Of a stretch of DNA of 64,000 bases, positions 19,372 through 64,000 are shown piece after piece. The notes under the pieces were generated by a model that saw nothing but the letters and a program-made list of their open reading frames with translations, was not told the DNA's origin and searched no databases. The DNA lies in NCBI RefSeq assembly GCF_030867145.1, contig NC_134429.1, positions 16,156,615-16,220,614 of the forward strand, in the 5' to 3' direction. Position 1 is the first letter of the stretch; the number at the start of each line of letters is the position of its first letter. This DNA comes from Opisthocomus hoazin. Lineage: Eukaryota; Chordata; Aves; Opisthocomiformes; Opisthocomidae. A program made the translations under genes and the position numbers.

Positions 19372-19516
19372 GCGGTGCTGCTGGTGCTGTGCTGGTGCCG
19401 TGCTGGTGCCAGTGGTGCTGTGCCGGTGGTGCTGTGCTGGTGCTGGTGCTGCTGTACTGGTTCTTCTGGTGCTGTGCCAGTGGTGTTGTGCTGGTGCTGC
19501 CGTTGCTGCTGGTGGT
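19372..19516. repeat. GGTGCTG minisatellite before the ANKRD26-like start
   Basis: Tandem imperfect GGTGCTGTGCTGGTGCC units between the CRE-like pair and the ATG at 19670. Strong G/T bias on the plus strand. The copy B counterpart is at 54629-54776. Confidence 0.8.
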
Positions 19517-19669
19517 GGGCTCAGCCCGGAGGCAGTTGCCCGTGCCCTGCTGCTCCTCAGGGCTCGGCTCCTCTGCTGGCAGCCGGCACCCGGCAGCGCC
19601 CACCCAATCCTGCCTGCCACCGCTCGTCGGTGAGAGGCAAGGCAGTGCGGTGCCCATTCCTGCTGGGCC

Positions 19670-22600
19670 ATGAAGAGCATCTGGCGGTTCCTGTGCAGGA
19701 GGAGGGCACAGAAGCAGCATGTGTCCTTCGGAAGCATCGCTGACAACGAGATCTTGCAGGAGGTCTGGAACAAGCCACACTGCATGTCCACCACCGGGGG
19801 CTTGGCCCCAGCGCCGCTGCCGGTGAAGAAGCAGGCGGCTGTTGGTGACAACAACTGCCGGGAGAAGGACGAGAGGTAACGGGCGCAGGCAGGCGGGAAC
19901 TCTTTGGGAAACTCCTGGGCTGTTCTCCTGCCCTGGGGCTTCGCTTCGTGCCTGGGCGTGTTGGTTCCCAAGGGAGGGAAAGATGGAAAGGGCCGTTGTT
20001 CTTGCGGTGAGTCCAAGAGGTTGTGCTGTCTGTCTTTCCAGGCCCAGACCCAGTGTGTGCCCTGCGGTCCCCAGGGAACAGGAAAACGAGGGAGGAGCTG
20101 CTCCAGGCCATGCAAAAGGGGTGTCAGCACCCAGAGCTCACCGCAGGGCAGCAGCTGCTGGAGCTAGGCGGTGTGCACCCGCTCTGGGGAGAGCAGGTAG
20201 GACTCTCCAGCGCGGAGGAGGCAATGGGGAAAAGGGTTGTCGCCTGCCCTTTTGGTGGGCTGCCAGGGAGACAGGGTGTTTGGAAACGGCGTGGAGGGGT
20301 TCCTTGTCATCCGGGAACAAATGCTCTGCCGGGTGTTGTCCCTGGGAAGCAGAATTCTCGAGACACTGCTTCCTTTTTGGCTCCTTTCTCGTCACTTCGA
20401 GTGATGTCCCTGGCACATGGCACAGGCGCATGCGCTCGAGGAGACGAACTCCCAAGCAGGAGAAGAGATGCATTTTGCATCCGCGTTGTGACAGGTCGCT
20501 CGCTAGGATTTCATGGGTTTGGGACGTGTGTTTGTGCTAAGATTGTCTCGGGAAGCACGATGATTCGGGAAGCGCTCTAGGCACCAAGGAGCTGTATTAG
20601 CTCACTGTGGTTCCAAAAATGTGTGGTTTTAATGTAGATGAGCCTGCCGTATACTGGGAGTCTGCCGGCCGTGAGTCGCCAGCTGATGAAGAAGCCATCG
20701 AGGAGGGCAAAAGCTCTGAGGGGGAGGTATGTAAACCCCAAGGCTTTACATTGGAGACTTCCTTTTAGGCTTCTATCACACCCTAATGCAGAAGAAGACT
20801 TTTCCATGAGTAATGCCAAAGGCAGGGTTCTTGGAAACTCTTTTCTCATCCGACGTCAAGTTAGCGACAGTCCTCTTCTGGGTCTGTGACATGCTGCCGC
20901 TGTCTCCTGTTTTGAGCTGATTTCCTAAGTTCCGTCCATTTTTATTCTTTCCCTTTGAGCAGACAGGAAACATCACAGCCCAAATACCGACCCCAGGGTT
21001 GGATTCGTCCCTTTGCCACTGGAGCCTCAGAAGTCCTGGGACACCAGAAAGTGCCGATGTGCAAGAGATTCTGAGAGCATGTGACGTCCGGCTCACTGTG
21101 CCCGCGCACATCTCTGAGGTGCTGGAAACCAACAAGAGCTTGTGTCAGCAGCTGAACAAAGCCAAAAGAAAAGCTGGCAGGCTGGAGCAGGAAGTGGAGC
21201 AACTGAAAGAAACTCTCCGGGAGAAGACACTGGCTCTAGATAGAGCAGAAAGAGAATTACATCAGGCCCGGAGGCAGGCAAAGGAGCAGCAAGCTCTACC
21301 CCCAAAGAACGCTCAAGAGAGAAAAGATGCCATCAAGCAGGCAGAAGGGCTGCAGGAACAACTGTCCCAGCTCCAGAGTGAAAACATTTTCCTGTGTCAG
21401 CAGCTGGGAGAGGTGCGGAACAAGACCGCCCAAGAACATAAGGTGAGCGATGCCTTTATATGCGTGGCGGACAAAGTAGAAAAAGAGGTGAGATGATCAC
21501 TGAGCAGGAATGACTGAAAGCAGAGCCGTTCCCAAGGCTGTCTGGTGCTCCGGAAAGTCAGCAGGTGTAAGCTACGTGCGTGGGAGTCCACCACTCGAGC
21601 TGGTTCTGGTTTCGTTGGAATTGCGGAAGGTGCCGGCAAGTCTTGAGACGTGCTTATAGACACATACGTAGATACAGTCTCCACATCTTCCCAGCAGAAT
21701 GTGCTGGAAACAGAAATCTTCCTTCAGAGATGGCATTTCTGTAGTTGCCTTCACTTGCCAAGGATGGCTAGAGACCGTCAGCTGTGCAGATGCCGCCTTC
21801 TTCCAGGGGATGAGGCTGCTCTGCTTTGCGATGCACTTAGAGAACCGATCTCGGTATATTATCTAGTAACTGCAAGTCAAAAGACAGATTTTGGCTTCTT
21901 ACCTTTTTCTCTGTCCTCCTGTGACATTGTTTCCCTAGAGAACAGTGGGACGGCTGCAAGAAGAGCTCACTGATGCTTCAAGAAAGCAGTGGATAGCAGA
22001 AACATCACTGAAAGCTTCCACACTCCAACGCGATTACCTGAAGGAGGAAAACTCCCACTTGCAAGAGGACCTGGACAAGGCTAAGGCCAAGGTATGCAAA
22101 GTCTCTAAACCTGTGAGTATGGAGGAAGCTGTTCCGTTGCTTCAAAGAGTGCCAGACAAGAAAATAATTTGGGAACAAATACAGGAGCGACTTCTCTGAG
22201 GACGTTATGAGCTTCCGCATCACTAACAACAGTTGTCCAGGCTCGAGGGTGCTTTTAACTCCTTTCTCCTCGCTGCCTCCTCCCCTCTCACCTTGAAAAA
22301 GTCAGCTGGCTCTTCAGGGAGCTCGTTGCGAAGCTGTGGGAAGGCAGTGAGCTTGGGACAGCACCTGGGTGGGGAAGAACAAGGCGGCCGTGCTCTTTGG
22401 AGACTGGCTTCTGTTCCGACACCGTGCAGAGGTTGTGGCCATGTGATTGAGTTTGGCGGAGATTTGAGAGCCCTTTGCCTAAGACAGATTGTTTATTCCC
22501 TGCATCCAGATGTGTGAACTCTCCACGCAGCTGGAGTTGGAGCGTGAAACATCTCTGCAGCTCGCACCTGCAAACCAGCAGCTGCGAGGGCTGGTGGCTC

Positions 22601-24154
22601 CTCTTGTGCCGCACGGCTTGGCGACTGCTGGCGTGGCTCGTACGGCAGCAGCGCTTTCTGGAGAACAGCGTGAACAGCGAGCACAGGCAGAAACGGGACA
22701 GAAGCAGCATCTCAGGCCACTTTTGCAGGTCAGTTTATGTACCATTTGCATCTGTAGCCCGTGTTGTGTTCATTCGTGGTGGTGGCGATGGCGTTTTAGG
22801 TGTTTGGTCTTGGGCATCCGACACTCCTTGTTGGTGCTGTGGGTTTGCCTTTCCCGTAGGGAAGCTGGGGAGCTGCAAGAGGCTGCGTCAAAGTGCGTCT
22901 GTGAGTGTGGTGGGACCTGTGTGCATGAGAAAGATGCCGCCTTTTCCTTCTCCCTGTCCATGCAGCACTGTAGGCTGTTTAATACTAGCTTTTGTGTACA
23001 AATGGCAGGAAGAGCAGGCTTTTTGAGAGCCGGGGGCGTTGTCTTTTTCTTCCTGTTTCTTGAAGTTGCGCCTTCTGCTTTAGACACAGGCAGCCACTCA
23101 AGCCAGAAGAGAGGAGATCTGCCCCACTGACGCCTCCTGGAGAAAACTGCTGGAGCAGAGACTGAGCGCTCTGGAATCGGAGCTGGAGAGAGCACAGAGC
23201 TTGCAGGAGAAGAGCGCACTGCAACTGGCATGTGCGCAGGCTGAACTAAAAAGTTGGGAGAAATGTTATCTGGTGGACCAGGAAATTAGAAGAAGCTTTA
23301 CAAAGACATTAAAAATGTAAGTCGAAATGTCTTCTGTTTTTCCCCCACGTTATGGGAATATGACCCTCTTCTTCGTGGCTTTTCCACCCCACTTCCCTTT
23401 CTTGGATCTGGTCAGCAGGATGCGTACCCTCAAGACGGCGTACTTCTCAGAAGAGCACGCCTTGAGCTCTCCCATTACGGAGGCCTGTTTGCCTTTCTCT
23501 TTACTGACCCTGAAGTAACACAATGAATCAGGCCTGTCTGCAGGACATTTTGGTTCTTTTTCTTCAAACAGTTTTCTGTAGCCGTCTCTCCTTGCTGCAT
23601 GGTGGTGGAAAAGAGGAGCTTCATTTCTGCTGCTCTTCTGCTCCACCTTAGGATAGACACACTTGGAAAGGCAGAGGGGACACAAGAGGAGCCTGTGAGG
23701 CAACAGGACTTTGTTCAGCTGCCGTTATGGCGGTGCATCGTCGGTTGGAGTTTACAGCAGGGGGAGGGAGGGAGCCTGCAGTCCCTACCACCTTCTAGGA
23801 AAGGTCCTACAAGGGAAGATATAAGACAGGTTGCTCAGAAGAGCCTGAGAAGCAGTACCTTTGGGTGGCTGGGAAGTCTGTGTGCATGAGTCCAACAGTG
23901 TAGCATCACCCTTGGGGAACACCTTTGTGCCACGATGAGTAACAGCCGTTCTTGCATGCTCCTGCCTTTTTCACAGGGCTAATGAGATGTTAGCAGAAGC
24001 TGTTGCTAAGAGCCCTCAGGAGCCGCGGTGCAGATGCTTCAGTGGCAAGGCAGAGAGTCAGGGCCAGACCAGGGCACAGAGCGGAAACCCATCGGGCTCA
24101 GGTAAGCAGCTCCAGATGTGGCTCTTCAGTGGTCAGGTGGGCTTGAAGAATTGA
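19670..24154 (+). CDS. ANKRD26-like coiled-coil protein without ankyrin repeats, copy A
   Basis: Eight exons in phase: 19670-19875, 20042-20196, 20638-20726, 20963-21442, 21939-22091, 22510-22728, 23084-23316 and 23977-24101, about 553 codons. The ATG starts MKSIWRFLCRRR, reminiscent of the ANKRD26 N-terminus. Residues about 150-361 align with the ANKRD26/CCDC144 coiled coil (LKETLREKTLALDRAERELH; QEQLSQLQSENIFLCQQLGE; LQEELTDASRKQWIAETSLK), and about 435-530 with its C-terminal end (LEQRLSALESELERAQ; TKTLKMANEMLAEAV). No ankyrin repeats are encoded between exon 1 and the coiled coil. Exon 2 is Arg/Ala-rich in the phased frame, and its other frame also looks protein-like (EELLQAMQKGCQHPE), so exon 2 is the weakest part. 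The 3' end is uncertain: read-through past the GTAAGC donor gives a TGA at 24152; otherwise a further exon is used. Confidence 0.72.
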
Positions 24155-24499
24155 ACCAATTTCAGGACCCTTGTTCCTCTGGAGTCTTGAGCTCCCAAAG
24201 CGCTGATTTGCTTTTGAGGCTTTGTCTGCATAAGGTGGGTGGGCACAGAAGGTGTTCTGGCAGGACAAATTCTACCTATGTCCACCTGGGAAGGATGGAC
24301 CCGTGCTGTGCTGAGAGAATTCCTTGGCCTGGCTTCGATAGCGGAGCTTTGTCTGCTCAAAGACAGACGATCCTGTGCTTTGGTGGGGAGGAAGGCAGAA
24401 GCTGGTGCAAAACCTTGTGCTCCAGAAAAGCCCTCTGCTGAGCTTCCTGGGAAAACGGGGCACTTGAGGGCAAAGGGGCCTCAGGGCTCTGAAGTGTAA

Positions 24500-24890
24500 G
24501 CAGATGCCATTTGGGTTGGCTGTCCCCTGCCTGCCTCCCCAGCGAGGGCGTCTCCGCGCTGCTGGAGGGGCGACGGTCACCGTCCCGGCCCAGGGGAGGC
24601 TGGCTCGGCCTGCGGGACTCTCCTCAGCGTGGGTGTGGGGGCCGGGGGTCAGGCCGGGGGCCGGCTAGGGGGGTCTGGGGGAGGCCCGGTGCCAGTCCTG
24701 GGCAGGGTGGGCGTCCCCGGGGGCTCTCCCTGGGGCCGGGGCAGCCGAGCCCTGCCTGGAGCTGCTCCCTGCTGCAGGGCCGGGGGCCTGGGGCTCAGGC
24801 AGGGCGGGGGCTCCATGGAGAGCGGCCTGGAAGATGGCCCGGGGCCTGGGCTGGGAGTGGGCGGGGCCCGGGGCCTGGGCAGGGCACGGG
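24500..24890. promoter_or_regulatory. GC-rich, CpG-containing island
   Basis: Very GC-rich with many CpG and GGGGCC/GGCCGGG runs. Together with the adjacent ZNF143-like array it looks like a CpG-island promoter, possibly of the CCDC30-like copy B gene 3.3 kb downstream. No TATA box or start site can be fixed. Open frames across it on both strands are a by-product of base composition. Confidence 0.45.
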
Positions 24891-31200: not shown

Positions 31201-32271
31201 GTGCAGGTGGGACGTAGGATTTGTGCTGGCCGTGACAAAGGCATGTGGAGCATGTCTCTTGGCCTTCGCCACTACCCACTAGTGCCTTCATATTATTACA
31301 GGTCTTGGAGGGGGTTTGCTCCTACGGCTGGTGGATTATCTAATGCAGATAGATGTAGCAGAAGTAGCTCGTGTTTTCTAGCTCTCCCATTCATTCATGA
31401 GAGACTCGGGTAGCTTTGGAATCACATTGTGCTAAGATTTCAGTCGTGGTTATGTGCTAACTTTTAATTATCTCTTCAGTCACAGGTCCCGAAGGATGAA
31501 GGGAGGGTTGAAGGAGACCACGCTTCAGGCAAAGCTGGCTCAGACCAAGACGACCAGTACCAGAGCAGTGAAACACTTCGTAAAAGGTGAGAAACCCAGA
31601 AATCCTTCTTCACCTGTCGTATTTTCACGGTGATTTCCTGGTGCTCTGGGTGCTGGTATTCTGTCTCGCAGAGTGCTTTTAAGTTCTTTAGGATACTCTC
31701 GGGTACCAGCTTTGTTCCTCTGCTCCCAAATTGGAAAGTTTGGAGGTAACGCAGTCCTGAGGGAGTCTGTAGCCCTTGGTATCAAGAATGCAGGCTGTTT
31801 TCAGGCACTTTCTCTAGCTGCTTTTGTGAAAGAGTAGGCTTTTGGCTCTTGTGGTTCTCTGCAGACAAAAGTGTTGTTTTCAAAATGGTTTTGTTGCTGG
31901 GAAGATTTCTGTGGATTTGGTTGCTGTCCAGGGGTGTACCAAAACACTTGGCTTTCAGACTTATAAATATGTAAACTGGGATTTTTCAGGGAAGTCAAAG
32001 CTTGGTTCTCCTGTGGCCTGCTCAGGAAGCTGCTGCTGAGCAGGTTCTGGCAGCTTCAAGGTAGAAAGAAGGGTCTCGTCGCATCCCTCTGTCTTCTTTT
32101 CTTTTCTTTTCTTTTCTTTTCTTTTCTTTTCTTTTCTTTTCTTTTCTTTTCTTTTCTTTTCTTTTCTTTTCTTTTCTTTTCTTTTCTTTTCTTTTCTTTT
32201 CTTTTCTTTTCTTTTCTTTTCTTTTCTTTTCTTTTCTTTTCTTTTCTTTTCTTTTCTTTTCTTTTCTTTTC

Positions 32272-32302
<31 letters not shown>

Positions 32303-35300
32303 CTTTTCTTTTCTTTTCTTTTCTTTTCTTTTCTTTTCTTTTCTTTTCTTTTCTTTTCTTTTCTTTTCTTTTCTTTTCTTTTCTTTTCTTTTCTTTTCTT
32401 TTCTTTTCTTTTCTTTTCTTTTCTTTTCCCTTCTTTTCTTTTCTTTTCCCTTCTTTTCTTTTCTTTTCCCTTCTTTTCTTTTCTTTTCCCTTCTTTTCTT
32501 TTCTTTTCCCTTCTTTTCCCTTCTTTTCTTTTCCCTTCTTTTCTTTTCCCTTCTTTTCTTTTGCCTTCTTTTCTTTTGCCTTCTTTTCCCTTCTTTTCTT
32601 TTGCCTTCTTTTCCCTTCTTTTCTTTTGCCTTCTTTTCCCTTCTTTTCTTTTGCCTCGTTTCCCTTCTTTGCTTTTCCCCTTCCAATGCCCAAGCCTGGT
32701 CTTCCACCTCAAGCAGTTGAATTTGCCATTCAAATTGCCAGACCTCCATCGTTGCTTGCGTAGGGCCCCTCCACCAATAATTCCCATGCATTGCCAGGTT
32801 AATAAGAGCAGCCACAGGTCATGCTGGATGCGAGACTCGAGATTAGCAGGGCAGAAATATTCCATAGTGAAAAACACATTGGCTCTTCCTCGCCAGTGGT
32901 AAGCAGTTTGGATGTCTGTCAGTGTGTTTACGTAGCAGTTCTAGCCGTGGCGATGTCGGTCTTTGTGTAGGTGCCAAGAGGTGATTGAAAACATCGAGGG
33001 CAGGAATTCACAGCTCCTTCACAAGCTGCAGAAACTGGCGCAGGAGCACGAGGATTTGGTTGAGCGCAATGAAGAGCTGGAATCCATTCTGGGAGAGACC
33101 CAGATCCAAACCAAGCAGGAGAAGGAACAGTTTGAGAGTGAGGTGGAGGGGCTTCACCGGAAAGTAAGTAAGGAACGGAAGAAATACAGTTTGGTTTTGT
33201 TTAATTCTAGCTGCTTTTCTCTCTGCGTATTGATTAGTAAAATAAAATGATGTTTGACCTAAACCTTTAGTTTGACAAGAAATGCAAATAGCAAGATTTG
33301 CCAGTTTCAGAAATGAGGGGAAAAGAAAGAAAAAATTCCAGCAGTGAGTAAATGACGCTTGCTTGGAGGTGCAGATTCCCCCAGTGTCACAGCAGCACTG
33401 TCTTTTCCAGCTCCTGTGCCCCCTCCTTGGTGCTTGGGCAAGCAGAGTTAACGGACTGATGTTCCACGTGCATCCACAGGAGTGAGACCGGGCGACACTC
33501 CCTTCCCGTACGGCCTCTCTCTACATGTGGGCTGCGCACCCTTCAGTTTCTTGGCTGAGCTGAAGGAAAGCCTTTTTGTTTCAAATTCGAGTTGCATCGT
33601 TCGTTCTCTGGAGCGATTTCTTCTGAAGCTTTTGTAGCTTAGAAGCTTTGGTTTCCCCTGAGAGGCTCTCCCGGGAGGCATCGGTGCTCCTGACCGACTG
33701 CAGCGCTGGTCTCCTGCAGGAACAGCTTTTCTGTGTTGGACATTCGTTTCTTCTGCCTGTGGTTCCTGCTGCAGTGCAAGTTCCAGGAAGCCCCAAGTCC
33801 TCTTGAGGCTCAGAGGAGAGGCACGAGGTTTTCCTGAAGCCCATGAGTTGGCACTTAACCTGGCACCCATAATAGAAGTCCAGGCTTTGACTTGAATCCC
33901 TAAGCCCTCTCCAGACCTGTCCAACATGAAAACAGTCAGTGTGGGACACTGATGCTCCTTGATCCCAGGAAAGGTCACCAGTTAAGCGTGCTGGTGGCAA
34001 AAGATTGCACTTTTGGCTTTTCCCCAAGGGACGGCATCATGGAGATCTGTCAGCCTGTGTGGTAAACACTGTGGCCCTTCTGGGTGTGGGGGGTCAGGAT
34101 CTGTGCTGCCTGGGGACATCCCTGCTGAAAATGCCGAATTTGAGAGGACAGTGAGTTTCTCTCATCACCTGCTATCTCCTGCTGCAGCGTCTGCTGTTGA
34201 ACGGGGCAGGCATGGCTGGACACATCTTTTTGAAGAGCTGTAATGAGCCGATACATCTGGAGAAGCCCTGCTCAGTCTTGTGATCAGATGAGATCTCTCC
34301 AGTCTCTTCCTAACCCATGTCCTGCTTGATTTTGGGCACCCTGATTTTGGGCAAACTGAATCTTTTGCTGTGAATAGGACAAGACCATTCAGATCATCCT
34401 TTGACTTCAGGAGGTTGATAGAAAGTCCTGGTTATTTCTACTCATTTGCATGTGACAGGGAACGTCTGGGAAGCTGCCAACGTAGAGCACCATGTTCATT
34501 ATCTGGTTTACCAGAACCATGGCAACGTTAGAGGTCTCCTTGCAACACCTGCAGAGCCATCTCCATCCATGTTTTAAGCAAAGATTAGCTTATTGCTGAA
34601 GCTTCTCAGCCCAGTGCTGCCTTTGTCAGAGTGGTCTTTAGCCTCAATTTACCGGATGGATTCTCCATCCCTCTGGAGGTCAATCTGTGAGGAGCGCCTG
34701 GACTTAAGGACTGGTTTGTCACTGCTTGCCCCCAGGGAAAATACTGCTTGTAGCATCACTACCAGGGTACGCAATCCCTTATGGACCGGGCAGCTAAGGA
34801 ATTTATAGGCAGAGAGAACAGAAGAAGCCAGAAGTTGGTCTTGCTAGATGGGTAGGTGGACTTCTCCCCAAAAAGGCTGGCTGAGGAGGTCTTTTCCTGT
34901 GGCTGAAGCCCTGCTGCCTGGCCAAAAGCTCTTCCTTCCTTGGGGTGAGTTGCCCTCTCCCCTCTGTCTGTGGTTGAGATGCCCTCTGCAGTGATCGTGT
35001 CCTGGACTGCCAGGCGGCAGGACCAGTCTGTAGTGTCCCCAGAGGACCTTGGACTTCTGAGGTGAGAAGGAAGGGCACACGCAGGTTTTCAGTCAGGAGT
35101 GAGCGGTGTTCGGACATGACTGTATGCTTGCTGTTGTGCTAAAACACGATGGGGGAGATACAGTAGCAGTGTGAAGGCATGTCCCATGTGAATGGCCTGC
35201 GTGAACCGCATGAAGTTCAACAAGGCCGAGTGCAAGGTCCTGCATGTGGGTCGGGACAATCCCAAACACAAGTACAGGCGGGGCAGAGAGTGGCTCAAGA

Positions 35301-58304: not shown

Positions 58305-58427
58305 AAATGCAGATGGAGATCTGCTACCTCATGGACCTCCATGTCGGCAGGGACAGTCTGCCTCACCAAGATCTGCTGCATGGCTGCAGGCACAGCGTCG
58401 ACACAGGGCGTCACCACGGGGACATTG

Positions 58428-58500
58428 TGATGTCACTGGTGAGGTTGGCCCTGCGACATGCGCGTCTCACAAAGGGCCTGGCCCCACCACCGCTATAAAA
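58428..58500 (+). promoter_or_regulatory. Promoter of protamine-like gene 1 (CRE-like site and TATA box)
   Basis: TGATGTCA at 58428-58435 and TATAAAA at 58494-58500, about 70 bp before the start-codon position. Between the CRE-like site and the start, this promoter differs from that of gene 2 at only 2 of 142 bases. Confidence 0.65.
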
Positions 58501-58569
58501 GCGGGGCAGGGGGCACTGAGCCCTGAGTCCTGGTGGGACAGGGTGGCCGTCCATACCACTCAGCCCAGC

Positions 58570-58740
58570 ATCTCCCAGTACTGGCGCAGCACCACCCGCA
58601 GCAGGAGCCAGCGCCGCCGCCGCCCGGGCCGCTACCAGAGCCCCCCTCGCCGCCAGAAGAGGAGAAGCCGGCGCCGGGCTGTGTCGCGCCGCCACCAGTA
58701 TAAAAAGAGCTGCCAGTGGCAGGGGACAAGCAGACGATGA
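58570..58740 (+). pseudogene. Protamine-like gene 1, start codon lost
   Basis: Aligned without gaps to the intact gene at 61195-61371. The ATG is ATC here (58570-58572), and CGA has become TGA at 58738-58740, removing the last two residues. The body is still open and arginine-rich: SQYWRSTTRSRSQRRRRPGR, then RRQKRRSRRR and SRRHQYKKSCQWQG. Only one cysteine remains. About 28 of 177 bases differ from gene 2, while flanks differ by 1-2%. The frame upstream is open back to the ATG of the truncated ANKRD26-like exon 6 at 58270, so a fusion ORF of 157 codons exists. A non-ATG start or fusion translation cannot be excluded, but pseudogene is the simplest call. Confidence 0.7.
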
Positions 58741-58838
58741 TGCTGAGCCCACCTCAGCAATAGGTGTCTGTGGAGCCAGCGTCCCACACGGCCACCACCA
58801 CCTCCATGCCGCCGCACCACCACGGTCCTTGCTCCTTC

Positions 58839-58844
58839 AATAAA
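58839..58844 (+). terminator. Polyadenylation signal of protamine-like gene 1
   Basis: AATAAA about 100 bp after the stop, in the context CTTCAATAAAGCTGC, identical around the gene 2 signal. Confidence 0.75.
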
Positions 58845-58984
58845 GCTGCAAAGACCTAACAACGGGTCTGTGTGTCCCTGACGTCCCTGTGCGCTGGCTG
58901 CATGTCCCCTCTTGTGTCGCATGGGTGGGTGTCCTGTCTGTGTCTGCCGGAGGGCGTGTGTCCCATGGGTGTGCATGTCCTGGC

Positions 58985-59390
58985 TCCCTGTCCATGCCCA
59001 TTTCCTAGTCCCAGCCCACCTCCACGTCCCCAGACGATCTTTATGTCCAGTCCGTCTCCACAACCCCAGTCTATGTCCACGTCCGTGCCCACCTCCAAGT
59101 CCTAGCCCATCTCCACATCCCAGACCATCACTGTGTCAAGCCCATGTCCAAGTCCCAGCCCACCTCCACGTCGCCAAACCATCTGTCCCAGCCCATCTCC
59201 ACATCCTCGTGTACCAGCTCATCTCCACGTTCCCAGACCATCTCCATGTCCCAGACCATCTCCACATCCATGCCTATCTCCACATCCGCAGATCGTCTCT
59301 AGGTCCACAGACCATCTCCTCCAAGTCCCCAGCCCATCTCCACATCCCCAGACCATTTCCATCTGCCAGACCACCTCCAGGCCTCCCGCT
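58985..59390. repeat. CATCTCCA minisatellite, unit 1
   Basis: Imperfect tandem units such as CCCATCTCCACATCCCAGAC and CATCTCCACGTTCCCAGACC, with periods of about 24-30 bp. Strong C-richness of the plus strand. The unit 2 counterpart at 61610-62015 is nearly identical. Confidence 0.85.
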
Positions 59391-59683
59391 TCTGCCGCGC
59401 TCCCTCAGGAAGCAGTGGGTGGCCCTGTGGCATGCCCAGGGATTTGGGGACATGATGGCACCTATGCATGGCCCAGAGGAGGCGGGTAGGTGCCACTGGC
59501 CAGCAATGCCCCGACCAGTCGGGACAAGGAGCCTGACCCTTCCCGTGGTCCTGGGGCAGCCGCCCGCCGCAGAGCCCCAGGAGGGAGCGGCTGCAGCTTT
59601 TCTTCACTCTTGCTCGCTTTTATTGACTTTTAAGGGAGGGCTTTGGAGGAGCCAGGTTGGACTCAGGAGCTCCCTGCTCCTCC
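59391..59683. other. GC-rich spacer, unit 1
   Basis: Non-repetitive GC-rich DNA between the minisatellite and the CR1. No gene recognised. Repeated in unit 2. Confidence 0.6.
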
Positions 59684-60442
59684 TGATGAGCTTCAACAAG
59701 GGCAAATGCAGGGTCCAGGCACCAGTACAGGCTTGGGGCTGACCTGCTGGAGAGCAGCTCTGTGGAGAGGGACCTGGGTGTCCTGCTGGACAACAGGTTG
59801 ACCATGAGCCAGCAGTGTGCCCTGGCTGCCAAGAAAGCTAATGGGATCCTGGGATGCATTAGGAGGAGTGTGGCCAGTAGGTCGAGGGAGGTTCTCCTTC
59901 CCCTCTACACTGCCCCAGTGAGGCCCCATCTCGAGTACTGTGTTCAGTTCTGGGCTCCCCAGTTCAAGAGAGATGAGGAGCTACTGGAGAGAGCCCAGCG
60001 CAGGGCTACGAGGATGGTGAGGGGACTGGAGCATCTCTCCTGCGAGGAGAGGCTGAGGGAGCTGGGCTTGTTCAGCCTGAAGAAGAGAAGGCTGCCAGGG
60101 GACCTCAGAAATCTTTATAAACATCTCAAGGGTGGGTTTCAGGAGGATGGGGCCAAACTCTTTTCAGTGGTGCCCAGCGACAGGACAAGGGGCAATGGGC
60201 GCAAACTGAAGCAGAGGAAGTTCCGTCTGAACATGAGGAAGAACTTCTTCACTCTGAGGGTGACGGAGCCCTGGCCCAGGCTGCCCAGGGAGGCTGTGGA
60301 GTCTCCTTCTCTGGACATATTCAAGAGCACCCTGGACAAGGTCCTGTGCAGCCTGGTCTAGGTGAACCTTCTTCGGCAGGGGGGTTGGACTAGATGACCC
60401 ACAGAGGTCCCATCGAACCCCGAACATTCTGTGATTCTCTAA
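59684..60442 (+). mobile_element. CR1 LINE 3' fragment, unit 1
   Basis: Encodes [40 protein letters not shown] and [20 protein letters not shown], ending CATTCTGTGATTCTCTAATT. A short internal deletion precedes the ATG at 59762, and it is 5'-truncated. Confidence 0.93.
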
Positions 60443-60930
60443 TTCTCTGATTTATTGCCAGGTAGCTGTGCCGTGGAGCAACAAGAGGGAGGGACAAATG
60501 TCAAACTGCCCAGACCCCATGCTCGGCTTCTTCGTGGTCTCTGCTCCCCTCCGCAATTCTCCACGCCACCCACCCAAGCGGCGCAGGAGGGTGGGAATGG
60601 AGCCTGCAGTCGGTCCCTCACGCCTTGTCTCTGCTGCTCCATCCACCTCGGCCTCTGTCCCTGCTCCAGGGTTGGGTCCACCCTGGGAGACAGTCCTCCA
60701 CCAGCTGCCCCAGCGATGGTCCTTCCCACAGGGTGCTGACCCTCAGCAACAGGCTCCTCCAGCCTGGGGGGTACCCCACGGTCTCCAAAGCCCTGCCAGC
60801 AAACGGCTCTGGCATGGGCTCCTCTCTCCACGCTGCCACAGCTCCTGCCAGGACCCTGATCCTGCACGCACTCTCCACGGCCTTACAGCCTCCTTTGGTC
60901 CCCCCTGCTCCAGCGTGGGCTCCTCCACGG
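60443..60930. other. Spacer upstream of protamine-like gene 2
   Basis: Unique GC-rich DNA. A frame from 60468 contains PPKRRRRVG, but the region shows no homology I recognise, no splice sites and frames open on both strands, so no gene is called. The distal promoter of gene 2 may lie here. Confidence 0.5.
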
Positions 60931-61052
60931 GCTGCAGGTGGAGATCTGCTCTCCCGTGGACCTCCATGGCGGCAGGGACAGTCTGCCTCACCACGGTCTG
61001 CTGCATGGCTGCAGGCACAGCGTCGACACAGGGCATCACCACGGGGACATTG

Positions 61053-61125
61053 TGATGTCACTGGTGAGGTTGGCCCTGCGACATGCGCGTCTCACAAAGG
61101 GCCTGGCCCCACCACCGCTATAAAA
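61053..61125 (+). promoter_or_regulatory. Promoter of protamine-like gene 2 (CRE-like site and TATA box)
   Basis: TGATGTCA at 61053-61060 lies 59 bp upstream of a consensus TATAAAA at 61119-61125. The start codon is 70 bp after the TATA box, leaving a 5' leader of about 40-45 nt. Protamine genes are classically transcribed in round spermatids through CRE-like elements close to a TATA box; CREM use here is inference. Confidence 0.7.
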
Positions 61126-61194
61126 GCGGGGCAGGGGGCACTGAACCCTGAGTCCTGGTGGGACAGGGTGGCCGTCCACACCACTCAGCCCAGC

Positions 61195-61371
61195 ATGGCC
61201 CAGTACCGGTGCAGCACCACCCGCAGCAGGAGCCAGCGCCGCCGACGCCCGGGCCGCTACCAGAGCCCCCCTTGCCGCCAGCAGAAGGGAAGCCGCTGTC
61301 AGGCTGAGTCGCGCCGCCGGCGGTATAAAAGGGTCCGCCAACAGCGGGGGACAAGAAGACAACGATGCTGA
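61195..61371 (+). CDS. Protamine-like sperm chromatin protein (gene 2, intact)
   Basis: Intronless 58-codon ORF from ATG 61195 to TGA 61369-61371. The N-terminus MAQYRCSTTRSRSQRRRRPG fits the protamine start pattern M-A-x-Y-R-x-S-x-T-R-S-R-S of chicken protamine (galline). The rest contains SRRRRYKRV and ends RRQRC. It has 20 Arg, 2 Lys, 4 Cys (6, 27, 35, 58) and one Glu. Protamines replace histones in condensing spermatid nuclei, binding DNA through arginine clusters. Arg content (about 34%) is low for a bird protamine, and cysteines are unexpected, since galline lacks them; mammalian P1 uses cysteines for disulfide bridging. A TATA box and AATAAA are placed as for a compact working gene. 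The frame stays open upstream to 60625, but the TATA box position supports the ATG at 61195. The function could be that of an accessory protamine rather than the main one. Confidence 0.78.
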   Translation: MAQYRCSTTRSRSQRRRRPGRYQSPPCRQQKGSRCQAESRRRRYKRVRQQRGTRRQRC

Positions 61372-61463
61372 GCCCACCGCAGCAATAGGCGTCTGCGGAG
61401 CCAGCGTCCCACACGGCCACCACCACCTCCATGCCGCCGCACCACCACGGCCCTGACTCCTTC

Positions 61464-61469
61464 AATAAA
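61464..61469 (+). terminator. Polyadenylation signal of protamine-like gene 2
   Basis: AATAAA 92 bp after the stop, in context CTTCAATAAAGCTGC, giving a compact mRNA of about 350 nt with the TATA box at 61119. Confidence 0.8.
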
Positions 61470-61609
61470 GCTGCAAAGACCTAACAAGGTGTCTGTGTGT
61501 CCCTGACATCCCTGTGCGCTGGCTGCATGTCCCCTCTTGTGTCGCATGGGTGGGTGTCTTGTCTGTGTCTGCCGGGGGGCGTGTGTCCCATGGGTGTGCA
61601 TGTCCTGGC

Positions 61610-62015
61610 TCCCTGTCCATGCCCATTTCCTAGTCCCAGCCCACCTCCACGTCCCCAGACGATCTTTATGTCCAGTCCGTCTCCACAACCCCAGTCTATG
61701 TCCACGTCCGTGCCCACCTCCAAGTCCTAGCCCATCTCCACATCCCAGACCATCACTGTGTCAAGCCCATGTCCAAGTCCCAGCCCACCTCCACGTCGCC
61801 AAACCATCTGTCCCAGCCCATCTCCACATCCTCGTGTAGCAGCTCATCTCCACGTTCCCAGACCATCTCCATGTCCCAGACCATCTCCACATCCATGCCC
61901 ATCTCCACATCCGCAGATCGTCTCTAGGTCCACAGACCATCTCCTCCAAGTCCCCAGCCCATCTCCACATCCCCAGACCATTTCCACCTCCCAGACCACC
62001 TCCAGGCCTCCCGCT
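61610..62015. repeat. CATCTCCA minisatellite, unit 2
   Basis: Counterpart of 58985-59390 with only a handful of substitutions, downstream of the intact protamine-like gene. Confidence 0.85.
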
Positions 62016-62308
62016 TCTGCCGCGCTCCCTCAGGAAGCAGTGGGTGGCCCTGTGGCATGCCCAGGGATTTGGGGACATGATGGCACCTATGCATGGCCCA
62101 GAGGAGGCGGGTAGGTGCCACTGGCCAGCGATGCCCCGACCAGTCGGGACAAGGAGCCTGGCCCTTCCCGTGGTCCTGGGGCAGCCGCCCGCCACAGAGC
62201 CCCAGGAGGGAGCGGCTGCAGCTTTTCTTCACTCTTGCTCGCTTTTATTGACTTTTAAGGGAGGGCTTTGGAGGAGCCAGTTTGGACTCAGGAGCTCCCT
62301 GCTCCTCC

Positions 62309-62760
62309 TGATGAGCTTCAACAAGGGCAAATGCAGGGTCCAGGCACCAGTACAGGCTTGGGGCTGACCTGCTGGAGAGCAGCTCTGTGGAGAGGGACCT
62401 GGGTGTCCTGCTGGACAACAGGTTGACCATGAGCCAGCAGTGTGCCCTGGCTGCCAAGAAAGCTAATGGGATCCTGGGATGCATTAGGAGGAGTGTGGCC
62501 AGTAGGTCGAGGGAGGTTCTCCTTCCCCTCTACACTGCCCCAGTGAGGCCCCATCTCGAGTACTGTGTTCAGTTCTGGGCTCCCCAGTTCAAGAGAGATG
62601 AGGAGCTACTGGAGAGAGCCCAGCGCAGGGCTACGAGGATGGTGAGGGGACTGGAGCATCTCTCCTGCGAGGAGAGGCTGAGGGAGCTGGGCTTGTTCAG
62701 CCTGAAGAAGAGAAGGCTGCCAGGGGACCTTAGAAATCTTTATAAACATCTCAAGGTGGG
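62309..62760 (+). mobile_element. CR1 LINE fragment, unit 2, cut by provirus
   Basis: Same CR1 as 59684-60442. The frame runs to CATCTCAAGGTGGG and is then replaced at 62761 by LTR sequence. The 3' part of the CR1 should lie beyond the provirus, outside the window. Confidence 0.93.
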
Positions 62761-63132
62761 TGTTCGGAATTAGCTAAAGGAAAGGGGCCACGACTCCATT
62801 GAACCTTTGTACGAGCAGAGCCTAGAGAGCTTAGCATGACTAGGCTCTTGCGGGTGCCCAGCAAGGACACAGTGTCCTTGCCGCATCTGGAAATCCCTGG
62901 CAGCACGTAAACAGGATGTTAGAAGGGGAAGCTAGCTGTAGCTGTAACCGTAAGATAACTGCAAGTAGGAGGACTATGTAAATGTAACCCTTAGAGCTAT
63001 ATCTAATCACTGCTTGACTAGTAGGCATAATTAATATTAACAGCATAAAAGGAGAGCTATCTGGACAATAAACAAATTCAGTGCCTTATCACTCATATTG
63101 AGTCGTCTGCCTGTTTTCCTTTGTCGCTCGCA
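62761..63132 (+). repeat. 5' LTR of the provirus
   Basis: 372 bp beginning TG and ending CA. TATA-like CATAAAAG at 63043-63050 and polyadenylation signal AATAAA at 63067-63072 suggest a very short R region. U5 runs to GTCGCTCGCA at 63132. Confidence 0.85.
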
Positions 63133-63134
63133 AG

Positions 63135-63152
63135 TGGCGCCCGAACAGGGAC
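63135..63152 (+). other. Primer binding site for lysine tRNA
   Basis: TGGCGCCCGAACAGGGAC, two bases after the LTR, is complementary to the 3' end of tRNA-Lys and is the same primer class used by betaretroviruses and lentiviruses. Confidence 0.95.
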
Positions 63153-63346
63153 CTGAAATGGAGCATTGAAAAGAAGCGACGGATGCGGAGAAGCACCGAC
63201 TGCAGCTGTTGGGGGGCTGAGGTCGCCTAAGGCATAGCTGGACTATCGCCGCGATCACTTGGAGGAGTGCCTGGACTGTCCAAAAGGGGTCCGCCGTCTG
63301 CAGGGCTGCTGGAAGCGCTGCAAGAATGAAAGATTGAGAAAGCGCT
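63153..63346 (+). other. Proviral leader
   Basis: Non-coding leader between primer site and gag, expected to hold the packaging signal and the splice donor. A tiny upstream ORF (ATG 63325, three codons and TGA) precedes the gag ATG. Confidence 0.6.
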
Positions 63347-63958
63347 ATGGAAATTGAGGTAGCCCTAGATTTATTACAGCGCTTTTTAGAAAAGCGAAAT
63401 GTAGACTGTATTAAACAGTTGTCTAGATTAGTAACGTTTAGGAGAGCACATGGATTTTTTAGGAATCCAGACTTGTTATTTACTTTGGAGAAGTGGAAGA
63501 GGTTTGGAGAAAAGTTGTGGGATTTGGTAATAGAGGAAGATAAAACAGCAAAGAAACTTACGAAACCATGGAGGGAGGTGACAAATGAGATTAAAAGGTA
63601 TCAGGTGGAGAAAAGGATGGCGGCAGTAGCTACAAAAAAGCTGGGCGGGGGCACCCCTATTCCTGGGTCGCTGTCTTACGGTGCGGGCTACAGTCATCGG
63701 ACTCATACTGGAGGGCCAGTGGCAGTTAAACGGCCAGCAGCAGAACAGTCGGATACTGTGCCTCCCGCCGATGAGACCGACCACAGTGAACCATCAGCTC
63801 CCCCTTTTGAAAGTAAGGGCTCTGGAGACAAGACTCCAGCACCCTGTTCAACCCCTCCTCGGCTCCCGCGACCAGTACGAGTTAACTGGGGGGAAATCAT
63901 GAGGCATGCAGTGGAGGCCAAGGATTACAGTACGGCAGAAAGTGTATCGGGTCAGTGA
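63347..63958 (+). CDS. Retroviral gag, N-terminal part (matrix region)
   Basis: Open frame of 203 codons beginning MEIEVALDLLQRF, with a helical, Lys/Arg-rich first 105 residues consistent with matrix (MA) and a Pro/Ser/Thr-rich stretch after it. There is no glycine at position 2, so no N-myristoylation signal. PSAP at residues 149-152 (63791-63802) resembles a TSG101-binding late domain. The frame ends at TGA 63956-63958, much shorter than a complete gag, and no capsid or zinc-knuckle region is reached. Whether the stop reflects an inactivating change cannot be judged, because the window ends 42 bases later. Confidence 0.8.
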   Translation: MEIEVALDLLQRFLEKRNVDCIKQLSRLVTFRRAHGFFRNPDLLFTLEKWKRFGEKLWDLVIEEDKTAKKLTKPWREVTNEIKRYQVEKRMAAVATKKLGGGTPIPGSLSYGAGYSHRTHTGGPVAVKRPAAEQSDTVPPADETDHSEPSAPPFESKGSGDKTPAPCSTPPRLPRPVRVNWGEIMRHAVEAKDYSTAESVSGQ

Positions 63959-64000
63959 TAACAGCCCCTCCCTCTCCATTCTATATGTCCCTTAAACAGG

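Follow-up and report, generated by a model that had tools for sequence, protein, structure and literature searches.

Short arginine-rich ORFs with cysteine codons in the genome of the hoazin (Opisthocomus hoazin) raise the question whether a bird possesses cysteine-bearing protamines, and whether such cysteines correspond to those of mammalian protamine P1. The reference protein is galline, the chicken protamine, in which 36 of 62 residues (58%) are arginine and the last residue is tyrosine. We know of no cysteine in galline; this is not a proven rule for the avian protamine family. Hereafter "the window" designates the whole 64-kb stretch of DNA that was analysed, and the cassettes are designated c1 to c16.

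Array organisation

The window exhibits two intronless units, each with a CRE-like site, a TATAAAA box, an arginine-rich ORF and an AATAAA signal, just as the original prediction had described. The three control elements of c1 are located at 58428..58435 (TGATGTCA), 58494..58500 and 58839..58844, and those of c2 at 61053..61060 (TGATGTCA), 61119..61125 and 61464..61469, all on the + strand; the AATAAA of c2 is followed by a GT-rich stretch. The tandem period from c1 to c2 is 2625 bp, and positions 58308-60137 match positions 60933-62761 at 96.7%. Unit 1 (58308..60932, + strand) is one period long and corresponds to the genome match at C16:16215019. A CR1 fragment is present downstream within this unit. 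Unit 2 (60933..62762, + strand) is interrupted and ended by an LTR-retrovirus-like insertion, and the distance to the next cassette is 5984 bp.

The genome holding the window (1.48 Gb) is that of a bird to judge by its globin exons, and a cassette search of the whole of it returned 17 matches, all on the + strand at C16:16215019-16261855. These are 16 cassettes and one truncated cassette, spanning 47 kb of contig C16, with c1 and c2 at the left (5') edge. The tandem arrangement claimed earlier thus stands, while the "pair" does not. The CRE-like site, TATA box and AATAAA signal are kept in all 16 cassettes, with the same CRE spacing throughout. A short single-exon gene with a CRE/TATA promoter and a close poly(A) signal is predicted in c4-c16 (13 of the 16) and in c2. 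Judging from the sequence, we consider it quite probable that c1 and c2 are left-edge members of a 16-copy tandem array of intronless galline-family genes, of which the inner copies are intact and the edges are decaying. Such a high tandem copy number is new for bird protamine.

Relationship to galline

Provisional sequences of galline and human P1 were used for comparison, and alignments were scored against 5000 residue shuffles. Against galline, none of the 5000 shuffles equalled the c5 protein, and 13 did so when only the part after residue 13 was considered; the claim that this bird genome carries galline-like protamine genes is borne out. The c2 and c1 proteins were equalled by 1 and 2 shuffles, respectively, and after residue 13 by 230 and 53. 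Against human P1 there was no similarity beyond composition, 2850 (c5), 1706 (c2) and 1699 (c1) of the 5000 shuffles scoring as well. The likeness to galline comprises a short intronless gene, identity at 11 (c5) or 10 (c2) of the first 13 residues, and ordered arginine blocks with GR..SP and RRRRY. In contrast to galline, the array proteins end in cysteine instead of tyrosine, and their arginine content is 47-50% in c4-c16 and 34.5% in c2, against 58%. As the terminal cysteine is found in 13/13 inner copies, the array encodes a variant and not galline itself.

Instead of a protamine, the arginine-rich frame might represent the tail of some longer coding sequence of unrelated nature, since the c2 frame is open over 301 codons with an in-frame ATG at 60814. 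We regard this as extremely unlikely. The two arginine-richest of 26,640 stop-free 58-codon windows (six frames, 64 kb) are c2 (20 arginines) and c1 (19), the similarity to galline is ordered, and the longer frame exhibits a stop in one of 14 copies (c2 and c4-c16). As a coding candidate, the upstream open frame was rejected: its variable sites are distributed 17/13/22 over codon positions 1/2/3, with no coding bias.

Database searches were less telling. Pfam gave no match for c2 or c1, Protamine_P1 included; as a control, this family was matched by human P1 and not by galline. No c2 homologue was found in the sequence database, and galline had none there either (E-value≤1, 170 candidates), so that the empty c2 answer says little. 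The database does contain bird-like DNA: a neighbouring coiled-coil exon retrieved 5 relatives among 87 candidates, 4 of them at 87-95% identity. Viral contig scans and the prokaryote contig scan revealed no relatives, and the PDB search yielded one match only (E-value = 8.8).

The inner copies

Start, frame and stop are all kept in 13 of the 16 ORFs, namely c4-c16. The encoded proteins are nearly uniform, being 58 aa long with 27-29 arginines (47-50%), and in all 13 the only cysteine is the last residue. This C-terminal cysteine is new for bird protamine. Some observations on them count against our best explanation: the pN/pS ratio among c4-c16 is 0.82, which lends no support to purifying selection here, and eight random changes stay harmless in 62% of the runs of a small simulation.

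The same pN/pS ratio, together with the dead or diverged state of three of the 16 copies, would fit a relic, in which amplified protamine-like pseudogenes are kept alike by conversion while another protein packs the sperm DNA. Galline gave no match in the hoazin genome and missed even the array, so its empty result is uninformative and leaves room for another gene. Against a relic, all 13 inner copies are open with intact control elements, and the least diverse segment among c4-c16 is the promoter/5'UTR (0.7% versus 1.5-2.2% elsewhere). A genome search with the c5 protein found the array and one further match at E-value = 2.7, and thus no better protamine candidate at E-value≤10. The relic reading therefore appears very unlikely to us.

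The edge copies and the extra cysteines of c2

The three leftmost copies differ from this pattern. In c1 the ORF (58570..58746, + strand) is dead, with ATG changed to ATC and a TGA at codon 57; the shared ancestral TGC TGA end is seen at 58741-58746. Copy c3 is dead through a 1-nt deletion. The ORF of c2 (61195..61371, + strand) is open and encodes 58 aa, including 20 arginines (34.5%), four cysteines (positions 6, 27, 35 and 58), two lysines and one acidic residue. The original prediction of an intact gene with four cysteines and about 34% arginine is accordingly right for c2, but fails as a description of a gene type: it fits one edge copy only, the 13 inner copies having one cysteine each at their higher arginine content. 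Cys6, Cys27 and Cys35 are encoded by TGC/TGT codons private to c2, where 13/13 inner copies have CGC. The dead c1 exhibits the same kind of arginine loss, including one CGC to TGC change.

We propose that the inner copies are kept alike by unequal crossing-over and gene conversion, and that the edge copies would escape homogenisation and then decay. In c1 and c2, CGN arginine codons would have been lost largely by CpG transitions that turned them into stops or into codons for Cys, Trp, His and Gln, the three extra cysteines of c2 being a probable by-product. In neutral simulations, the array consensus received random substitutions with CpG sites weighted 2.3-fold, as in the flanks. The ORFs that remained open contained on average 2.98 cysteines and 20.3 arginines, versus 4 and 20 in c2, and at least four cysteines occurred in 34% of them (10.5% without the CpG effect). 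When 21 changes were introduced, no more than 28% of the simulated copies kept an open frame, so that decay alone makes the intact frame of c2 somewhat unexpected.

The divergence of c2 also admits a functional reading, namely a neofunctionalised cysteine protamine in which Arg to Cys changes were favoured for disulfide or zinc bridging, convergent with eutherian P1. The open ORF, its strong start context and the intact promoter and poly(A) elements agree with this, and Cys6 coincides with a cysteine in human P1. Between c1 and c2 the ORF is far more diverged (28/174) than the flanks (23/1586), a 13-fold difference in odds. Non-CpG changes in c2 are in excess in the ORF (14/129 versus 29/749 in the flanks, p = 0.003), a difference that simple neutral decay leaves unaccounted for; c1 has no such excess (5/129 versus 27/749, p = 0.80). 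However, we consider a functional c2 of this kind unlikely. The pN/pS ratio of c2 against the consensus is 0.86, the c1-c2 NG86 ratio of 1.52 falls inside the range of neutral simulations with CpG effects, four or more cysteines arise in 34% of the open neutral simulations with 2.3-fold CpG weighting (although in 10.5% without it), and the dead c1 has lost arginines in like manner.

Positive selection on c2, considered for the 13-fold odds, was rejected. Synonymous sites are raised too (about 4/39 between c1 and c2, versus 23/1586 in the flanks, p = 0.003), and the N:S ratio can be put down to CpG effects. Derived sites shared by c1 and c2 number 14 outside the ORF, and those shared by c2 and c3 number three inside the ORF and none outside; this affinity of the c2 ORF to c3, and of the c2 flanks to c1, is a further ground for the rejection. 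From these patterns, c2 looks like erosion at the array edge, patched by gene conversion. Since CpG-biased loss of CGN arginine codons predicts the extra cysteines, c2 is neither a retained nor clearly a convergent parallel to P1, as had been proposed. The cysteine signal remaining in the sequence is the single C-terminal residue of the 13 intact inner copies.

Comparison with known systems

Eutherian P1 (PRM1) resembles the array proteins in being short and arginine-rich, in starting with MA.YR, and in having SR motifs and cysteine. It differs in giving no alignment above shuffles and in having several cysteines, which serve intra- and intermolecular bridges; the intact inner copies have one cysteine each, and four are found in c2 only. 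The mammalian P1 locus adjoins CLEC16A and SOCS1. The FPL domain PF09758, which we take to be CLEC16A, is located on contig C15, so the array on C16 is not beside it, and SOCS1 was not found in the 200 kb to the right of the array.

Literature titles and abstract openings, mostly outside subscription journals, revealed no bird protamine containing cysteine or encoded by an array; a passage in PMC7126135 describes birds with two identical protamine genes. According to the same source, the P1 cysteines of Planigale (Retief 1995, also among the references of PMC11607694) were gained by Tyr to Cys changes. The array resembles this case as a cysteine gain in a protamine lineage otherwise devoid of cysteine, and its terminal cysteine may likewise be a Tyr to Cys change. 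Planigale P1 differs in being a marsupial P1 with several cysteines and, to our knowledge, not a tandem array.

Multicopy protamine-like genes are also known as Mst77Y of Drosophila, Y-linked and called dominant-negative in PMC10120018. Diverged hoazin copies, if expressed, could similarly interfere with compaction; unlike these Y-linked copies of an insect gene, the hoazin array consists mostly of intact copies. As all bird sperm carry Z (PMC8812575), conflict between X- and Y-bearing sperm, as for the fly protamine copies, presumably could not drive amplification in the same way.

CRE/TATA-driven transcription would take place in spermatids, translation of many copies would supply protamine in bulk, and the arginine clusters would replace histones on sperm DNA. 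A protein that has a single cysteine can form a disulfide bond only by pairing with a second molecule. We tentatively suggest, with considerable doubt, that hoazin sperm DNA is packed by a protamine which 13 or more almost identical genes in tandem encode, and whose only cysteine, at the C terminus, perhaps derived from tyrosine and gained independently of mammals, links molecules in pairs by disulfide bonds, eroding edge copies adding low-dose variants. An array-edge copy can be a misleading guide to the composition of a protamine. If our proposal is true, the array with its terminal cysteine would be a natural test of the effects of dose and of one disulfide per molecule on sperm DNA packing.

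Protamine-like cassettes in the window

Two units of the window, 58308-60137 and 60933-62761, are 96.7% identical at a period of 2625 bp. Each exhibits, as read in the sequence on the + strand, a CRE-like site TGATGTCA (58428 in the first cassette, c1; 61053 in the second, c2), a TATAAAA (58494; 61119) and an AATAAA (58839; 61464), bearing out the original prediction of two cassettes. The predicted ORF with four cysteines was also recovered: the c2 ORF (61195-61371) translates to MAQYRCSTTRSRSQRRRRPGRYQSPPCRQQKGSRCQAESRRRRYKRVRQQRGTRRQRC, with 20 Arg, 4 Cys, 2 Lys and one acidic residue. In c1, the ATG is replaced by ATC and a TGA occurs at codon 57. Among all stop-free windows of 58 codons in the 64 kb (26,640), the c1 and c2 ORFs rank top in Arg.

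A sixteen-copy array

In the genome from which it comes (1.482 Gb, 415 contigs), the window occupies 16156615-16220614 of contig C16. A search of that genome with the cassette DNA returned 17 matches, all on one strand of C16 (16215019-16261855), the ORF region being present in sixteen cassettes (c1 to c16, rightward). The predicted tandem pair thus exists, but as two members of a much larger array. The 17th cassette (C16:16261684-16261855, locus L012, array strand) keeps the promoter, 5'UTR and ATGGCCC, and is joined at the start codon to sequence of the neighbouring segmental duplication, possibly a promoter capture. Start-to-start distances are 2520-2643 bp in 14 of 16 cases. The c2-c3 distance is 5984 bp, a retrovirus-like insertion starting there at about window 62763; the c4-c5 distance is 4063 bp, part of the unit being present twice. 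By eye, the insertion (62763-64000, in unit 2) shows a gag-like frame as well as a primer site of the tRNA-Lys type, and none of its Pfam matches rose above the cut-off (Gag_p6, E-value = 0.05).

The CRE-like site, TATA and AATAAA are present in all sixteen cassettes, and the start context CCCAGCATGGC in fifteen. Over about 1 kb, the inner copies (c4-c16) are mutually 96.4-99.4% alike, and c1-c3 are 93.3-95.9% alike to the remaining copies. An intact 58-codon ORF was identified in 13 of 16 cassettes (c4-c16), encoding proteins with 27-29 Arg and a single Cys, the last residue; MAQYRRSTTRSRSRRRRRPGRYQSPPRRQKRRSRRRAVSRRRRYKRRRQRRGTSRRRC, the product of c5, c6, c11 and c12, is an example. The c3 ORF is broken by a 1-nt deletion, c1 is dead and c2 is open.

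Origin of the four cysteines of c2

Compared with the c4-c16 consensus, the c2 ORF differs at 21 of 177 bases, c1 at 13, and c3 at 16 plus a gap. All 13 inner copies read CGC at the codons that specify Cys6, Cys27 and Cys35 in c2, where c2 itself has TGC, TGC and TGT, respectively; its remaining Cys, at codon 58, is common to other array copies. In c1, TGC replaces CGC at codon 48, and TGG, CAC, CAG and TGA stand at other former CGN codons. In the flanks of c1-c3, change was 2.3-fold more frequent at CpG sites than elsewhere (13/174 versus 74/2248; a hand estimate). In a neutral simulation, the consensus ORF was mutated randomly 21 times with this CpG factor, without a CpG effect, or with a factor of 5. 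At 2.3, the ORF was still open in 28% of runs; open ORFs had a mean Cys count of 2.98 and a mean Arg count of 20.3, with at least four Cys in 34% of them (10.5% without CpG effect, 61% at 5). Since simulated open ORFs resemble c2, its composition fits erosion as an ordinary outcome, one among other possible outcomes. The ancestor inferred from c1 and c2 alone, with CpG loss assumed and four codons set by hand, has 26 Arg and one terminal Cys, and differs from the c5 protein at 3 of 58 residues.

Between c1 and c2, 28 of 174 ORF sites differ versus 23 of 1586 flank sites (Fisher p = 2.5e-16), the flank count excluding the 64-bp left edge (58308-58371), whose 8 differences all lie on the c1 side when set against the consensus. 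The NG86 estimates are dN 0.189 and dS 0.124; synonymous changes were as few or fewer in 12% (no CpG effect), 59% (factor 5) and 87% (factor 12) of neutral simulations. Non-CpG changes in c2 are in excess in the ORF (14/129 versus 29/749 in the flanks, p = 0.003), which counts against plain decay; c1 exhibits no excess (5/129 versus 27/749, p = 0.80), and 8 of its 13 ORF changes are at CpG sites. Outside the ORF, 14 derived sites unite c1 with c2 and none unites c2 with c3; inside, a single one is common to c1 and c2, as against three (61297, 61301 and 61307) for c2 and c3. As c2 has ORF sites in common with c3 and flank sites in common with c1, it appears to be a patchwork, most simply read as conversion or a retained older patch. 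Against the consensus, pN/pS is 0.86 for c2 and 3.64 for c1 (11 nonsynonymous, 1 synonymous). Among the inner copies it is 0.82, so that purifying selection on them is not demonstrated.

Similarity to galline

Alignment scores against chicken protamine (galline) and human protamine P1, both entered by hand, were compared with 5000 residue shuffles. The c5 protein scored 146 against galline (shuffle mean 94; 0/5000 as good) and 107 beyond residue 13 (mean 81; 13/5000). For c2 the score was 101 (mean 66; 1/5000 shuffles reaching it) and for c1 100 (2/5000); beyond residue 13, 230/5000 and 53/5000 shuffles reached the respective scores. Against P1, neither c5 (2850/5000 as good) nor c2 and c1 (1706/5000 and 1699/5000) rose above shuffles. 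Pfam Protamine_P1 matched neither c2 nor c1, which means little because the hand-entered galline is equally unmatched. With the c5 protein, the genome (E-value ≤ 10) gave 18 matches, 17 within the array (c3 as two pieces) and one on contig C2 (E-value = 2.7). The hand-entered galline gave none, missing even the array, so there may be a further galline gene.

Chromosomal surroundings

The mammalian protamine neighbourhood is the CLEC16A locus. PF09758, the domain of CLEC16A, matched on contig C15, which also carries alpha-type globin exons; the array, being on C16, is therefore not beside that neighbourhood. About 146 kb right of the array are exons of a WNT gene (~C16:16407500-16409400; best PDB matches Wnt-5a, Wnt-3 and Wnt-7a), which we read as WNT4-like.

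A segmental duplication of ~22-24 kb (1-22486 and 33594-57764, 97.7-98.9% identical) carries coiled-coil gene exons with DUF4686 and CCDC144C matches. To the right of the array (L016:3536-8658; C16:16276735-16281857), window 19393-24516 recurs in inverted orientation (97%), which places the array between oppositely oriented copies of this duplicated region. Beyond its right end, an inverted piece (C16:16268164-16268659, locus L013) is 94% like window 60451-60946, a segment just upstream of unit 2. For the coiled-coil exon at 21041-21493, related sequences, 87-95% identical, occur on four short contigs from a metagenome source, which suggests bird DNA in metagenomes. A tandem purine-rich repeat occupies 32088-32679, its minus-strand frames reading as KRKE-type low-complexity protein. 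Beta-globin exon 2 of the genome agrees with chains 3eok_B and 3a59_B at 72 of 74 residues; the twelve best matches are recognisable as bird haemoglobins, and the one after them as tortoise. Together with CR1-like repeats, recognised by eye, and the size of the genome, this marks the source as a bird.

Proposed working of the array

Promoter-like elements, intact ORFs, a galline-type protein and one terminal Cys form the sequence-level basis of the array. By analogy with established protamine biology, CREM would drive transcription of its genes in spermatids, SR motifs would be phosphorylated and arginine clusters would neutralise DNA. Because each molecule has one Cys, any disulfides would have to be intermolecular. 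The high copy number would increase protamine dose, and unequal crossing-over with conversion may homogenise the middle of the array while its edges decay.

Two identical protamine genes are described for birds (PMC7126135). Cysteine is described as sporadic among sperm nuclear basic proteins (PMC11607694), multicopy fly Mst77Y as dominant-negative (PMC10120018), and galline in mouse sperm as disturbing chromatin (PMC10944935). Among the titles and abstract openings listed in literature searches, none reports a bird protamine array or bird protamine cysteine.
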